Of a DNA stretch of 64,000 nucleotides, positions 9,466 to 22,415 are shown piece after piece (within the stretch, counting starts at the first letter, position 1; each line of letters begins with the position of its first letter). The DNA lies in contig NC_021490.2 in assembly GCF_000410535.2 (NCBI RefSeq), forward strand, positions 282,501 to 346,500, read 5' to 3'. The DNA is from Treponema pallidum subsp. pallidum str. Nichols. GTDB taxonomy: Bacteria; Spirochaetota; Spirochaetia; Treponematales; Treponemataceae. The notes beneath the pieces are model-generated. The model was given only the letters and a program-made list of their open reading frames with translations. It did no database searches and had not been told where the DNA came from. The translations under genes were made by a program, and so were the position numbers.

Positions 9466-10215
9466 TCACTTCGTGCGGAATATACGGTAGAAAAGCAAGA
9501 GAAAGATATACCATACGTATCGCACGCTCCTGTGCCAGCGCAATGGATGCAGTGTTTGTCCCCAGGGACTGCGTCCGTGTAACAGTTCTTTTGCGCGTGG
9601 TCGTTTGCGCCGTTTTGAGAAAATGTCGATAACCTCGCTGTCTTGCACAAAAATGCCACCGGCGAAGTGTGCGCGATTGCGCGCAATCCATCGTACGCCT
9701 CCTGGTACCCCATTGCCGACAATTACCAGCGATGCGTTGGATTTTACAATTGCCGTGATAATGTTGTTTTCTAACGTCTTACGATAAAAGCCGTGAAATC
9801 GACCTACCACGCTCAGTCCGGGAAAGGTAGAATGCACGTTACGCTCCGCCTCGAGCAGACTCTGTCCCCGACCGCCGAACAAGTAGAGTGATTTGTAGTG
9901 CGTGTCCATAACGTTGAGCAAGGTGATGATGAATTGAAACGGGTGCCGAAAGATAGGTGTCGGCAATCCCAAAAAGCGTGCACCGCGCACAATACTGTAG
10001 GATGTGGGCAGACACAACGCTGCGCGGCCTACCATGGTGCGGAACTCGTGATTATGCCGTGCCTTTAGCACGTCCCAGAGAGAAAGAAATATAATGTGCT
10101 GCGGCTCTTTTTTTTCTAACAGGGAGAGAATGACGGTGCACAGATACTCTTCACGCACCACATCAAGGGGTACGGAAAGGAACTCAATGCGCGTTACCAG
10201 CTGCGTTTGTTCCAT
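9466..10215 (-). CDS. WecG/TagA/CpsF family glycosyltransferase
   Basis: 249 residues with the GT26 layout: LCLPTSYSIVRGARFLG for the usual ADG-xP...xxG entry, the LYLFGGRGQSLLEAERN nucleotide-loop region, and ASLVIVGNGVPGGVRWIARNR, equivalent to the family's VxxGxPkqE segment. Known members transfer N-acetylmannosamine or related sugars to undecaprenyl-linked intermediates in wall teichoic acid or ECA synthesis. The C-terminus (RYVWYIFLLLFYRIFRTK) is a hydrophobic and basic tail that should hold it at the inner membrane. T. pallidum lacks LPS and teichoic acid, so the acceptor is unknown. It overlaps rsmE by 22 bases. Confidence 0.85.
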   Translation of the reverse strand: MEQTQLVTRIEFLSVPLDVVREEYLCTVILSLLEKKEPQHIIFLSLWDVLKARHNHEFRTMVGRAALCLPTSYSIVRGARFLGLPTPIFRHPFQFIITLLNVMDTHYKSLYLFGGRGQSLLEAERNVHSTFPGLSVVGRFHGFYRKTLENNIITAIVKSNASLVIVGNGVPGGVRWIARNRAHFAGGIFVQDSEVIDIFSKRRKRPRAKELLHGRSPWGQTLHPLRWHRSVRYVWYIFLLLFYRIFRTK

Positions 10216-17234: not shown

Positions 17235-18914
17235 ATGCGTGCCGATAAAGGGGCGGTGGGAACGGTTGCTGTGGTCTGTGCCTTTGATCTGAGCGATTAT
17301 GCCTTTGTGCCCTTGTGTGGCACGCGTGAGCAGTCGTGTATGAAAGCAGTGCCGGGGTTCGTGCCGTGCGTGGAGGTGAGGGGCTGTGAGAGTACAGCCG
17401 GGGTGGGGCGGCGTTGCGCTTTCGAGCGTGCTGTTACAGCTGCTTACGCGTTGCCTGGTTGCCATCAGGTGTGTGTGTACGCGGATGCGGCGAGCGCCGC
17501 GAAGGTTGCGCGTTTTATGCAGTGCGCTACGCCTATTTTTCCGTCGCTGCGCGTGAACGTTCTGGATGACATGCGAGTGAGCGCCTTCTTCGCGCATGTT
17601 GCACGCGTATGTGCGGAATACGCGCAATTGGGTGAAGAACCTGAGGCTGTCTTTGTTCTGCGCGCAGACGCGCCCTTTATTGATAGTGTGGCGAGCGCCC
17701 AGTTATACGCGCAGCATCGCGAATATCTTGCAGAGTATAGTTTTGCAGATGGCTACCCGGAGGGGTTATTTGCTGCAGTTGTTGCGCCAGGACTTTTCCC
17801 CATCCTTGCTACTTTGACTCAGGATGCACATATTTGTTTTGACACTTCGTTCATTTTTGAGAGCATTAAAACAGACATTAATTCTTTTGATCTAGAAACT
17901 ATGATTGCGCCGGTTGATGTGCGGCATCTGCGTCTGGAATTTTATACGAGTTCTAAGGCGCAGTTCTTGCAGTGTGCTGCATTTACCGATATCACTGCAG
18001 AAAATTACGCACAGCTTATCAGCGCACGTGAGCATGCGTTGCGCACAGTTCCTGCGTACTATGCGCTTGAGTTGACGCGTGCGTATCCGCTTTCTTCGTT
18101 GTATCGGCCAGTATCTTTTCCTGCGCAGGTGGAGAATGCTTCACTGATGCCAAAAGAGGAAGCGTGTGCGTTGATCCGGCGCATTGCAGACTTTTCAGAA
18201 CGTGCGGTCATTTCGCTTTCGGTATTTGGGGATCCGGTGTTGTATCCTGCACTGTGTGACGTCGTACGTGAGATTCTCAAGTATCCGGGTTTGTCGGTGC
18301 TCATTGAGACAAGTGGGTTGGGGTGGCAGGAGTCTGTAGTGCGTGATTTGTGCGAATGTGCGCGCAACAGTGCGCGCACTCCTTTTGCCATTGGCTGGAT
18401 TGTGTTTTTAGATGCGGTGAGTTCAGGCATGTACAGTCAGGTACACCGTGTGTCGCTGTCAGAAGCGGAATTTTTTCTAAAAGAAGCGACGGAATTTGCA
18501 ATGCAGGTACATGCGCAATGTCCGGGCGTGCTGTGGCCACAGATTTTCCGTATGAATGAAAACGAAAAAGAGCTCGAGCCCTTTTACCGCACGTGGAAGG
18601 AGCGTGTGGGGCAGGTGATTGTTCAAAAGTATGATCATGTGTGCGGATTGCTTCCCGATCGGCGGGTTGCAGATCTATCTCCTTTGGAGAGGTATCCGTG
18701 TTGGCATCTAAAACGAGATATGATTATTTTCACTGATGGTCGAGTTCCGCTGTGCAAAGAAGATGTGCACTGTCGCCACGCGCTGGGCAATGCTTTCCAG
18801 CAGGATCTTGCACAGATTTGGCGGCGGGGACAGGATGTGTATCTTCAGCACGTTCGTGCAGTACATGAAGGATTATGTGGGCAGTGTGATGAGTACTATA
18901 CCTATAATTTTTAA
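17235..18914 (+). CDS. Spiro-SPASM protein
   Basis: 559 residues. The C-terminal part has a SPASM-type iron-sulfur binding segment with several cysteines (YPCWHLKRDMIIFTDGRVPL followed by CKEDVHC, and GLCGQCDEYYTY). The upstream part looks like a radical-SAM barrel (AVISLSVFGDPVLYPAL, LSVLIETSGLGW) but has no CxxxCxxC SAM-cluster motif, so it is probably not a normal radical SAM enzyme. The N-terminal 230 residues resemble a nucleotide-sugar transferase fold (AVFVLRADAPFIDS). Proteins of this design are known from spirochaetes and named spiro-SPASM; their reaction is not established. It heads a cluster with two sugar-related genes and overlaps the next gene by 26 bases. Confidence 0.8.
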   Translation: MRADKGAVGTVAVVCAFDLSDYAFVPLCGTREQSCMKAVPGFVPCVEVRGCESTAGVGRRCAFERAVTAAYALPGCHQVCVYADAASAAKVARFMQCATPIFPSLRVNVLDDMRVSAFFAHVARVCAEYAQLGEEPEAVFVLRADAPFIDSVASAQLYAQHREYLAEYSFADGYPEGLFAAVVAPGLFPILATLTQDAHICFDTSFIFESIKTDINSFDLETMIAPVDVRHLRLEFYTSSKAQFLQCAAFTDITAENYAQLISAREHALRTVPAYYALELTRAYPLSSLYRPVSFPAQVENASLMPKEEACALIRRIADFSERAVISLSVFGDPVLYPALCDVVREILKYPGLSVLIETSGLGWQESVVRDLCECARNSARTPFAIGWIVFLDAVSSGMYSQVHRVSLSEAEFFLKEATEFAMQVHAQCPGVLWPQIFRMNENEKELEPFYRTWKERVGQVIVQKYDHVCGLLPDRRVADLSPLERYPCWHLKRDMIIFTDGRVPLCKEDVHCRHALGNAFQQDLAQIWRRGQDVYLQHVRAVHEGLCGQCDEYYTYNF

Positions 18915-19842
18915 CGAGAAAAATGTTGCACACACGGTGGTGGGTGGTCAACTCTGTCCGGTGGCGTCTGCTTTTTTAGGTGCAGTAGTACTCAATCGGG
19001 GAGTGCGGTGGAATCGGGCAGAGTTTTTTGCGCAACTGACTACCCTTGGCATCGCGCCCATTGTATCGGTGGAGCGGAGTGCAGCAGCTCCAGATGTTAC
19101 CGGTCTTGCTGAGCGTTTCCCCTTCGTTAAGTTTATCACACCGCTTGAGTGTATTTCGGTTGGAGAAATGATCAATTTAGGTGTTGCAGAACTTGATGTC
19201 ATGTATGTTTTAGTTCTGTGGAGCGACATGCGCATAGATCCGCAGGGTATGAGCCAGCACATACAGGATATCTTGCGCACGAATACGCACATGTGTATTG
19301 CGCCGCAATTGTGTTCTTCCCACAGTACTGTACTCCCAACGCAAATTGTCCCTGCCTTGCGAAAAAGTGACTTCTTTACACAGCCTACGGAATGTACGAC
19401 TAACCATACGCCTACGATATACCCGTATGATTTTGTTGGAATATACCATCGGGACCGGTTTATCCAATGCGGAGGTTTTGATTTTACCATCGCGAATGCA
19501 TATTGGCAAAATCTTGATTTTGGATTGCGTTCTTATTTGTGGGGGGAGTGCATAGAGGTTAATACGCAAATAAGACTGTTTTATGAGGCTCTTCCCCCGC
19601 AAGAGGATGCAAGTGCAGATGGTTCGTACCGCATCTTTTATCTGAAAAACCTTGCGCCACTCCTAGAGAAGGATAGGGCCTTTATTTCGGGCACGCAGTT
19701 TTTTTCATTTTTTAGAAATTCTGGTCTGCATCTAATAGAGGCGTACCGTCTCTTTCGGGACGCTCAGAAATGGGTGGCGGTGAATAGATACCGTTTTAAA
19801 AAAACTGCCGCGCGTTTAGTAAGTGAGTGGGAACCACGTTAA
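18889..19842 (+). CDS. Glycosyltransferase family 2-like protein
   Basis: 317 residues from the ATG giving MSTIPIIFNEKN; the in-frame extension upstream lies inside the spiro-SPASM gene. The fold signs are GT-A like: LDVMYVLVLWSDMRIDPQG (in the place of the DxD loop) and FIQCGGFDFTIANAYWQNLDFGLRSYLWG, which matches the GGFDE...WxxxDxxxR pattern of GT2 enzymes. The canonical DxD is not clear, so activity is uncertain. It sits between the spiro-SPASM gene and a SpsF-SpsG-methyltransferase gene, with overlap on both sides (26 bases; TAATG). Confidence 0.7.
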   Translation: MSTIPIIFNEKNVAHTVVGGQLCPVASAFLGAVVLNRGVRWNRAEFFAQLTTLGIAPIVSVERSAAAPDVTGLAERFPFVKFITPLECISVGEMINLGVAELDVMYVLVLWSDMRIDPQGMSQHIQDILRTNTHMCIAPQLCSSHSTVLPTQIVPALRKSDFFTQPTECTTNHTPTIYPYDFVGIYHRDRFIQCGGFDFTIANAYWQNLDFGLRSYLWGECIEVNTQIRLFYEALPPQEDASADGSYRIFYLKNLAPLLEKDRAFISGTQFFSFFRNSGLHLIEAYRLFRDAQKWVAVNRYRFKKTAARLVSEWEPR

Positions 19843-22415
19843 TGGAGCAGGATCGTTCCGGTGTTGCAGTTATTGTGCAAGCACGCGTTGATTCTACGCG
19901 GTTACCAGGAAAGGCGCTGTTGCCCCTTATGGGGGAGCCGCTGATACATTACGTGTTGCAGGCAACGCGGGTCATCCCTGCAGAAACGTATATTCTTGCG
20001 TGTGATGAACATTCTAAAAAAGATTTTGAACCCGTTGCGCGCGCGCATGGGTTCTACTGTATTTCAGGATCGGCAGAAGATGTGCTCCACCGCTTTTGTA
20101 TCGCAGTTAAGGCTTTTGAGCATTCGTTCCCAATTCGAACCGTCGTGCGGGTTACCGGAGATAACCCTTTTTTGTTTCACGAAGCAGCTGCTGCAGCGCT
20201 CCTGCGTTATGCGGAACTGGACGAGCCAGATTATTTTACCTTCACTGGTCTTCCCTACGGCAGCGGAGTGGAAATATTAAAGGCGCGCTCGTTGCTTTTA
20301 GCAGATCGTCTTCCTTTGGAGGCGTACGACCGTGAGCATGTAGGACCTGCCTTACATCGCCGCCCGGGTATTTTCGTGTGTGTGCGTGAACCTGCCGCTG
20401 CCGCATGGTATCACCCTGATGTGCGAGTAACGGTGGACACGCAGGAAGACTTTCAGCGAGCGCAGCATATGATGGAGTACGTGTGCACGTTGCAGTGTCC
20501 GTTTCCGCTCTCTTCCGATGTTATTTTAGATGCGTATGCGTACGCGCGGCAGGTGGTGGTATTTGTACCCTCAGTGAAAATAGGACAGGGAGCGGGGCAT
20601 TTATATCGGGCGGCGTATTTAGTCTTGCGACTGCAAGGACGTGTGCGCTGTTGCTTGTATGTGCCCGATCGTAGTTTGCTGTGCAAACTGTCTACTCCCT
20701 TTCCTGAGGAACTGATAGTGGACACGGTTCCTGCGGATGCATCACTGATAGTGGTCGACAACTTCCGTACTTCTACGTGCGAGATTGAATTACTTCAGCG
20801 TACTGCACCAGTGCTTGCTCTGGATGAGGGGGGATCTGGACGTCTGAATGCGGATTACTTGATAGATGTATTTCCCGTCTTGCAAAGTCCGGGTCGAAGG
20901 TCGCTGGCCGCTCTTACGAATGTACGTGATAGTGCGTTTATCCCACTTCCAGAGACGAGAAAGGAGCAGGATCTGCCTGTGGCAAACGGCAGATTTTTTC
21001 CTATACCTGGCGTCACCACCGTATTGGTGGTGTATGGGGCAGAAGATACACACGGCCGCGCGCGTTCGTGTGCTGAGCGGATAGCTGCATTAGGTTTTGA
21101 CACCTCAGTGGTAGTTCCTGGTGAAGCGTCTGAACGGACGGACGGTAAGGTGCACATATACCCTTCTTTGCCTCATTTGAAAGAGCATCTCCACCGCTGG
21201 GACGTGGTAGTTACCCATTTTGGTTTTACCGCATTTGAGGCTGCAGCTGCAGGGGCGGCGGTGTTGCTTGTTTCACCAACGCCCTATCATTTTTTACTCT
21301 CGAGTGCAGTGGGTTTTTCTGTTATTCGATCTGCTGATCCTGCTGCGCATGAGTTGTGGTCTCAGATGCAGCAGGGAATTATTATACCCGATGTTGTGAC
21401 GCGACATTCGCAGTGTCGTGATCTGGCAGATGAAATCATGCGCGTTGCGCGGGGGAAAAAACACTGCTGTCCTTTTTGTGGAGAAATGGTAGCGGTGGAT
21501 GTTGTCGGTCGTGCATTACATAAAACCTTTCAGCGCTGTAATGAATGCGATATGATTTTTCTCTCCTTTGTAATTTCAGATCCAGTTCGATACTCCGAGT
21601 CATATTTTTTTGAAGAATACAAGGCACAGTATGGCAAGACTTACCTTGAGGACTTTGACCAAATTCGAATGCATGGTGCGCGCAGGATGGAGGAGATCGA
21701 ACGCTTATATGCAGAAGTTTTTTGTGCAGATGAAGGTAATTCGTTTGCAGTTGATAAAAAGGTTTTAGATGTTGGCTGTGCATATGGCGCTTTCTTGTCT
21801 GCGGCAAAGGCTGCGGGGTGGAATGCTGTTGGGGTTGATGTCTGTGAATTTGCGGTGCGTCATGTGCGAGACACACTCTGCATTCCTGCTTGTGTTGCAA
21901 CGTTTCCATTACTTCCTGAGTGTTTTGACTTTGTGATTCGGCACAGCTTTGCCACGAATCGTCCCCAACAAGTATCTGTTTACATTCGAGAGTGTACGTT
22001 CTCCGCCGTTACCCTGTGGTTTGTGATAGAGCATTTTCAGGACCTGGAGGCGGTACTCAGGAAGGTGGCAGATCTTTTAGTGCCTGGAGGTATTCTTGCC
22101 TTTTCTACCCCTAATTTTGCAGGTGTCACTGGTATGCGTTTTCCGCATCTTTTTTTTGCGCAGAGTCCTTGCGATCATTTTACAATATGGGATGCGCGCA
22201 CGGTAAAAAAGCAGCTCTTGCGCTACGGTTTTACGGTAAAGAAAATAGTGGTGACTGGTCATCATCCCGAGCGATTTTATCCTCACAAGCATTTAAAATC
22301 TGGTGGGTTGAAATGGAAGATGCTGATGGCATTGAGCAAATGGTTCCAATTAGGAGACACTATGGAGGTGTACGCGATAAAGCAAGGAGACGCGCATGGA
22401 TCTGCGAGTAAGTGA
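19842..22415 (+). CDS. Three-domain SpsF / SpsG-like / methyltransferase fusion
   Basis: 857 residues. Residues 1-236: SpsF/CMP-sugar cytidylyltransferase-like domain (VIVQARVDSTRLPGKALLPL, VVRVTGDNPF). About 237-540: SpsG/PseG-like domain with a GHLYRA motif (VKIGQGAGHLYRAAYLV) and a late helix typical of GT-B folds (VVTHFGFTAFEAAAAGAAVL). About 541-857: a zinc ribbon (CCPFCGE and CNECDM) then a class I SAM methyltransferase (VLDVGCAYGAFLSAAKAAG, WFVIEHF). The methyltransferase has an in-frame insert near residues 704-728. Such domains are usually separate genes in polysaccharide or flagellin-glycan loci. Start chosen at the ATG overlapping the previous TAA (TAATG); a GTG five codons earlier is possible. 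Confidence 0.85.
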   Translation: MEQDRSGVAVIVQARVDSTRLPGKALLPLMGEPLIHYVLQATRVIPAETYILACDEHSKKDFEPVARAHGFYCISGSAEDVLHRFCIAVKAFEHSFPIRTVVRVTGDNPFLFHEAAAAALLRYAELDEPDYFTFTGLPYGSGVEILKARSLLLADRLPLEAYDREHVGPALHRRPGIFVCVREPAAAAWYHPDVRVTVDTQEDFQRAQHMMEYVCTLQCPFPLSSDVILDAYAYARQVVVFVPSVKIGQGAGHLYRAAYLVLRLQGRVRCCLYVPDRSLLCKLSTPFPEELIVDTVPADASLIVVDNFRTSTCEIELLQRTAPVLALDEGGSGRLNADYLIDVFPVLQSPGRRSLAALTNVRDSAFIPLPETRKEQDLPVANGRFFPIPGVTTVLVVYGAEDTHGRARSCAERIAALGFDTSVVVPGEASERTDGKVHIYPSLPHLKEHLHRWDVVVTHFGFTAFEAAAAGAAVLLVSPTPYHFLLSSAVGFSVIRSADPAAHELWSQMQQGIIIPDVVTRHSQCRDLADEIMRVARGKKHCCPFCGEMVAVDVVGRALHKTFQRCNECDMIFLSFVISDPVRYSESYFFEEYKAQYGKTYLEDFDQIRMHGARRMEEIERLYAEVFCADEGNSFAVDKKVLDVGCAYGAFLSAAKAAGWNAVGVDVCEFAVRHVRDTLCIPACVATFPLLPECFDFVIRHSFATNRPQQVSVYIRECTFSAVTLWFVIEHFQDLEAVLRKVADLLVPGGILAFSTPNFAGVTGMRFPHLFFAQSPCDHFTIWDARTVKKQLLRYGFTVKKIVVTGHHPERFYPHKHLKSGGLKWKMLMALSKWFQLGDTMEVYAIKQGDAHGSASK

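Follow-up and report, generated by a model that had tools for sequence, protein, structure and literature searches.

Three overlapping genes (Table 1) make up the cluster considered here, which lies in a window of 64,000 nucleotides (genome positions 282501-346500) from Treponema pallidum subsp. pallidum str. Nichols. The first-pass annotation of this DNA had described both overlaps, and the coordinates and junctions are confirmed: genes 1 and 2 share exactly 26 bases, while the TAA of gene 2 and the ATG of gene 3 have the last A of the stop in common (TAATG). Counted from this ATG, the whole of gene 3 (19842-22415) codes for 857 aa. The mechanical open reading frame of gene 2 starts further upstream, at 18736; the conserved start is used here. 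In older annotations each of the three genes was halved (TP0284/285, TP0286/287 and TP0288/289), and the halves were later merged as TP0284_285, TP0286_287 and TP0288_289 (PMC3265458). Judging by their order, these probably correspond to genes 1, 2 and 3.

Table 1. Genes and domains of the cluster, in window positions
Feature	Position	Strand	Remarks
Gene 1, spiro-SPASM protein	17235..18914	+	559 aa; TIGR04321
Gene 2, divergent GT-A-fold protein without canonical DxD	18889..19842	+	317 aa from conserved MSTIP start
Gene 3, SpsF/CMP-sugar cytidylyltransferase domain	19842..20546	+	residues ~1-235; motif VQARVDSTRLPGK intact
Gene 3, PseG-like UDP-sugar hydrolase domain	20547..21457	+	residues ~236-538; GxGHxxR (G250, G252, H253, R256)
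Gene 3, CxxC...CxxC ribbon (C543, C546, C566, C569) and class I SAM-dependent methyltransferase, motif I LDVGCAYGAF	21468..22415	+	

Domain architecture of genes 3 and 2

As had been proposed from the translation, gene 3 combines cytidylyltransferase-like, PseG-like and methyltransferase domains on a single chain. The N-terminal domain is recovered by the CTP_transf_3 profile (PF02348, E = 3e-54) and contains the R..S.RLPGK motif; it does not reach the NCBIfam equivalog cut-off for PseF. The middle domain gave no PseG match in a single-sequence NCBIfam search; a profile search matches it to the solved PseG structure 3hbm (E = 7e-5), and its four GxGHxxR residues are invariant in the alignment. 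The C-terminal domain belongs to the Methyltransf_23 family (PF13489, E = 2e-22, 80.1 bits), with motif I present. This three-domain fusion is found mainly in Treponema and its near kin, and SpsF is a separate gene in many deeper relatives. At one locus (L033:4514-7233, genome G287) gene 3 is present as two overlapping reading frames broken inside the PseG domain, by either a split or a frameshift; the gene of T. vincentii (L053) is whole. Some Spirochaetales (L063:5945, L068:5943 and L071:6058) have, about 4 kb upstream of spiro-SPASM, an additional stand-alone methyltransferase that resembles the C-terminal domain of gene 3.

Gene 2 gave no match in single-sequence Pfam and NCBIfam searches, nor in a profile search of the PDB. 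Its AF2 model (pLDDT 91.4) adopts a GT-A fold (Foldseek, 1.6e-12), and the earlier label of "GT2-like" is therefore correct as a statement of fold. In Foldseek the closest folds, with modest TM scores, are the GT27 protein O-glycosyltransferases. The GT-A fold is common to gene 2, the GT27 polypeptide GalNAc-transferases and GT2 (E ~1e-12), but gene 2 differs from these in its low identity (10-14%, TM ~0.54-0.63) and in the absence of DxD, an ED motif having become WQ..D. In the alignment the DxD metal/donor motif is not conserved (W111-x-D113, with D113 in 66 of 91 sequences); the invariant residues are G196, Q207, R214 and G219.

Operon context and phyletic pattern

Comparison of gene neighborhoods in relatives, which had been suggested as a check, revealed a conserved cluster order running into FlaA. 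The order in relatives is spiro-SPASM, gene 2, SpsF/PseG/methyltransferase, ATP-grasp, amidase, GerMN and FlaA, the last being a protein of the flagellar sheath. In counts from 80 named loci, gene 2 directly follows gene 1 in 75 of the 76 with room for it, and the ATP-grasp/LAL_C2, Amidase_3 and FlaA genes all lie downstream in 52 of the 55 with 9 kb of room. T. pallidum retains all parts of this operon, in three places, namely this cluster, an ATP-grasp orthologue at 764 kb and an amidase-GerMN-FlaA block (261-264 kb) that precedes the cluster by about 36 kb; linkage to FlaA is broken in T. putidum as well. Outside the class Spirochaetia, spiro-SPASM adjoins an SpsF-type cytidylyltransferase at three loci (L045, L046 and L048), two of which (L046 and L048) also have a PseG-like gene.

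The expected co-occurrence with flagellin was likewise recovered across 296 Spirochaetota genomes. Spiro-SPASM was matched in 247 of the 250 flagellin-bearing genomes outside family f6, the three misses being genomes that are 76-84% complete. It was found in none of the 31 genomes of f6, a family which we take to be Borrelia-like from its flagellin near 148 kb, and in two of the 15 flagellin-less genomes, both times weakly and under the curated cut-off; these absences are partly obtained by subtraction from the matches listed. Without the Borrelia-like family the association with flagellin has a Fisher p of ~1.5e-17, calculated over species that are not independent. NeuB is also missing from the Borrelia-like family (again partly by subtraction from the matches listed), and Maf-family genes are absent from all six of its genomes tested and from five of six flagellin-less genomes tested.

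The distribution of gene 2 tracks neither flagellin nor nonulosonate. Borrelia-like genomes contain clear orthologues (E ~1e-78) in the order gene 2-amidase-GerMN-FlaA, the flagellum-less f9 keeps gene 2-amidase-GerMN, and f12 keeps gene 2-amidase, with weaker matches. Gene 2 is an uncharacterised GT-A-like gene whose conservation next to the amidase-FlaA block extends from Treponema to Borrelia-like spirochetes, and it is not restricted to the nonulosonate route. Its conserved partner appears to be the amidase, a member of the same putative ancestral operon, and a link to the glycan would come from position only. In two Borrelia-like loci (L149:6741-10373 and L150:6760-10358) gene 2 overlaps the amidase gene and is followed by GerMN-like and FlaA genes, with neither spiro-SPASM nor gene 3 beside it.

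Given these arrangements and the missing DxD, the chances seem about even that gene 2 alone stands outside nonulosonate transfer, as a cell-wall or periplasmic-flagellum assembly factor acting with the amidase-GerMN-FlaA block; its overlap with gene 1 in T. pallidum, its place between genes 1 and 3 in nearly all relatives, and its resemblance in fold to protein O-glycosyltransferases, however, point the other way. Such a role would be compatible with the explanation preferred below for genes 1 and 3. Gene 2 was also considered as the sole flagellin transferase, and rejected in view of the Maf-like proteins present and its occurrence where gene 1 is absent. Literature searches found no relevant paper on BB0665, and TP0286 only in an annotation table.

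The radical SAM site of gene 1

Gene 1 was described earlier as an SPASM protein without the SAM-cluster motif, and this description holds. It is a member of the spiroSPASM family (E = 6e-155, 516.7 bits against a curated cut-off of 250) and matches Pfam SPASM (PF13186, 29.1 bits, cut-off 21.5); in the family alignment CX3CX2C is absent from the T. pallidum protein, which has YPLSSLYRP at the equivalent site, the cysteine triad being replaced by Y284, S288 and R291. A cytidylyltransferase-like domain (~1-240) is followed by a BtrN-like radical SAM/SPASM domain (~270-559), and the fold of the AF2 model (pLDDT 90.6) matches BtrN, SPASM maturases, DesII and cytidylyltransferases. A profile of 59 family members matches BtrN (E = 8e-14), and its N-terminal half gives a weak match (0.005) to a Leptospira cytidylyltransferase. 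Gene 1 has the radical SAM fold of BtrN and DesII, which act on aminocyclitol or sugar substrates, with BtrN related by sequence profile as well. It differs from them in that its family adds the N-terminal domain and has lost the triad in about half of its members, T. pallidum included.

CX3CX2C is intact in 53 of the 101 spiro-SPASM proteins and lost in 48, and the four cysteines of the SPASM region (489, 507, 548 and 551 in T. pallidum) are invariant in all 101. One triad-intact relative (L041) is a member of Pfam Radical_SAM; Brucepastera (L074) is another relative with the motif intact. When the motif columns are left out of tree building, the intact and lost states require at least 10 changes, five of them forced by well-supported branches, as against 32 with shuffled labels; the figure of 10 is an estimate, because the tree was built quickly and has some long branches. 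As regain of three cysteines is unlikely, most of these changes are read as losses. The clade that contains T. pallidum together with T. putidum and T. vincentii has one common loss, and its sister clade is intact. The T. pallidum protein is a radical SAM protein whose catalytic cluster site was lost, and we therefore infer that it serves as a structural or substrate-holding partner. It is unlikely that it remains catalytic in T. pallidum by way of its cytidylyltransferase-like domain or an unusual cluster: although its 559 aa are intact, with the conserved G177, D145, P147 and R233 and all four SPASM cysteines, the triad is gone and the SpsF-type R..S.RLPGK motif is not recognisable in its N-terminal domain.

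More broadly, spiro-SPASM might, on evenly balanced odds, be a sugar-tailoring enzyme of the radical SAM type which was repeatedly converted by spirochetes into a non-radical partner: the catalytic Fe-S site would have been dismantled many times, with the cysteines of the auxiliary cluster and the place in the operon retained, so that the chemistry of the flagellin sugar changed from one lineage to the next. Among the lineages converted in this way would be the T. pallidum/T. denticola type. The repeated dismantling of the radical SAM site is the most surprising feature of the system, and the conserved operon offers a natural series of radical SAM enzymes in intact and dismantled form. A literature search found no paper on spiro-SPASM.

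A probable nonulosonate route to the flagellin

Further candidate nonulosonate genes and Maf-like genes are dispersed over the T. pallidum genome. PseB-like and PseC-like genes are adjacent (84263-87122), a PseI/NeuB-like gene with a SAF domain lies at 610885-612240, and there are four MptE/Maf-like genes, all above the cut-off of the Maf family (PF01973) and one matching FlagModPseD. PseB, PseC and PseI are the best family matches yet fall under their equivalog cut-offs (172.9/407.75, 318/423.5 and 177/340 bits), and on the PseI/NeuB-like gene the PseI model (177 bits) is barely above NeuB (174.5); these scores therefore do not fix the stereochemistry of the sugar or the nonulosonate isomer. 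The PseH N-acetyltransferase had no match in the genome, leaving room for the ATP-grasp ligase as a possible acyl-attaching step.

The motifs VEVSQL and DRIAS, which PMC7431986 reports to be glycosylated in T. denticola, are present in all three T. pallidum FlaBs; one Borrelia-like flagellin has IEIEQL and NRVAD in their place. The T. denticola FlaBs carry a 450.2 Da glycan essential for filament assembly (PMC9481697), and glycosylation of T. pallidum flagellin is reported in a passage of PMC13144727 citing Wyss 1998. With flagellin glycosylation already published in both species, the target of the glycan is not the puzzle that it had been taken for. The modification being known biochemically, the new part is its linkage to this cluster: the literature search yielded no paper tying the two together and no gene assignment for the T. 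pallidum glycan. Candidate genes are proposed for a glycan on which filament assembly in T. denticola depends, and they become testable in a cultivable treponeme.

FlaA synteny, co-occurrence with flagellin and the NeuB/PseI and Maf-like genes strongly support the flagellar filament as the target, one of the candidates named by the first-pass annotation. We consider it highly probable that the cluster represents the upstream section of an ancestral spirochete operon whose products make and tailor the nonulosonic acid, of pseudaminic or legionaminic type, that is O-linked to FlaB flagellins. The same evidence strongly supports the activation and modification parts of the nucleotide-sugar route claimed earlier; the three genes do not form one closed route, as gene 2 persists beside the amidase in Borrelia-like and flagellum-less spirochetes, which essentially lack gene 1 and Maf. 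That the cluster instead makes a lipid-linked or envelope/peptidoglycan-associated glycan, with WecG/TagA and the amidase as functional partners and FlaA synteny reflecting shared periplasmic assembly, is improbable: the amidase is part of the operon and even the Borrelia-like and flagellum-less relatives have gene 2 next to the Amidase_3 gene, but gene 1, NeuB and Maf track flagellin and are missing from the Borrelia-like family, and the supposed partner WecG/TagA (9466-10215), named earlier as a possible member of the nucleotide-sugar route, has no homologue near the cluster in 20 relatives and was rejected.

For the flagellin nonulosonate, the gene content and domain families suggest the following order of reactions, substrates and target. 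The PseB/PseC-like enzymes would produce a 4-amino-6-deoxy UDP-sugar, from which the PseG-like domain of gene 3 would strip UDP; the PseI/NeuB-like synthase would condense the sugar with PEP, and the SpsF domain would form the CMP-sugar. The methyltransferase domain and the ATP-grasp ligase may produce an O-methylated acyl group and add it, replacing PseH, with gene 1 probably as a structural or substrate-holding partner. The Maf-like proteins would finally move the sugar onto FlaB ahead of export. The T. denticola glycan is said, in work by Kurniyati from 2017, to be a pseudaminic-type nonulosonic acid with a 2-methoxy-4,5,6-trihydroxyhexanoyl amide; its methyl and amide-linked acyl groups would fit the methyltransferase and amide ligase of the operon.

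The closest known system is the Pse pathway with Maf flagellin glycosylation in Campylobacter, Helicobacter and Aeromonas, to which the putative PseB/C/G/I/F-like steps, the Maf-like proteins and flagellin as the probable target would correspond. In contrast to that system, PseF-like, PseG-like and methyltransferase domains are here on one chain, an ATP-grasp ligase and spiro-SPASM are part of the operon, PseH was not found, and the operon is linked to the FlaA sheath protein. Maf-dependent glycosylation in Aeromonas is cytoplasmic and precedes export (PMC4065374). At one T. pallidum locus (L142, G000:C1:190000-200000) two tandem Maf/MptE-like proteins are encoded amid same-strand genes, beside neighbors of 308 and 627 aa that belong to no family.
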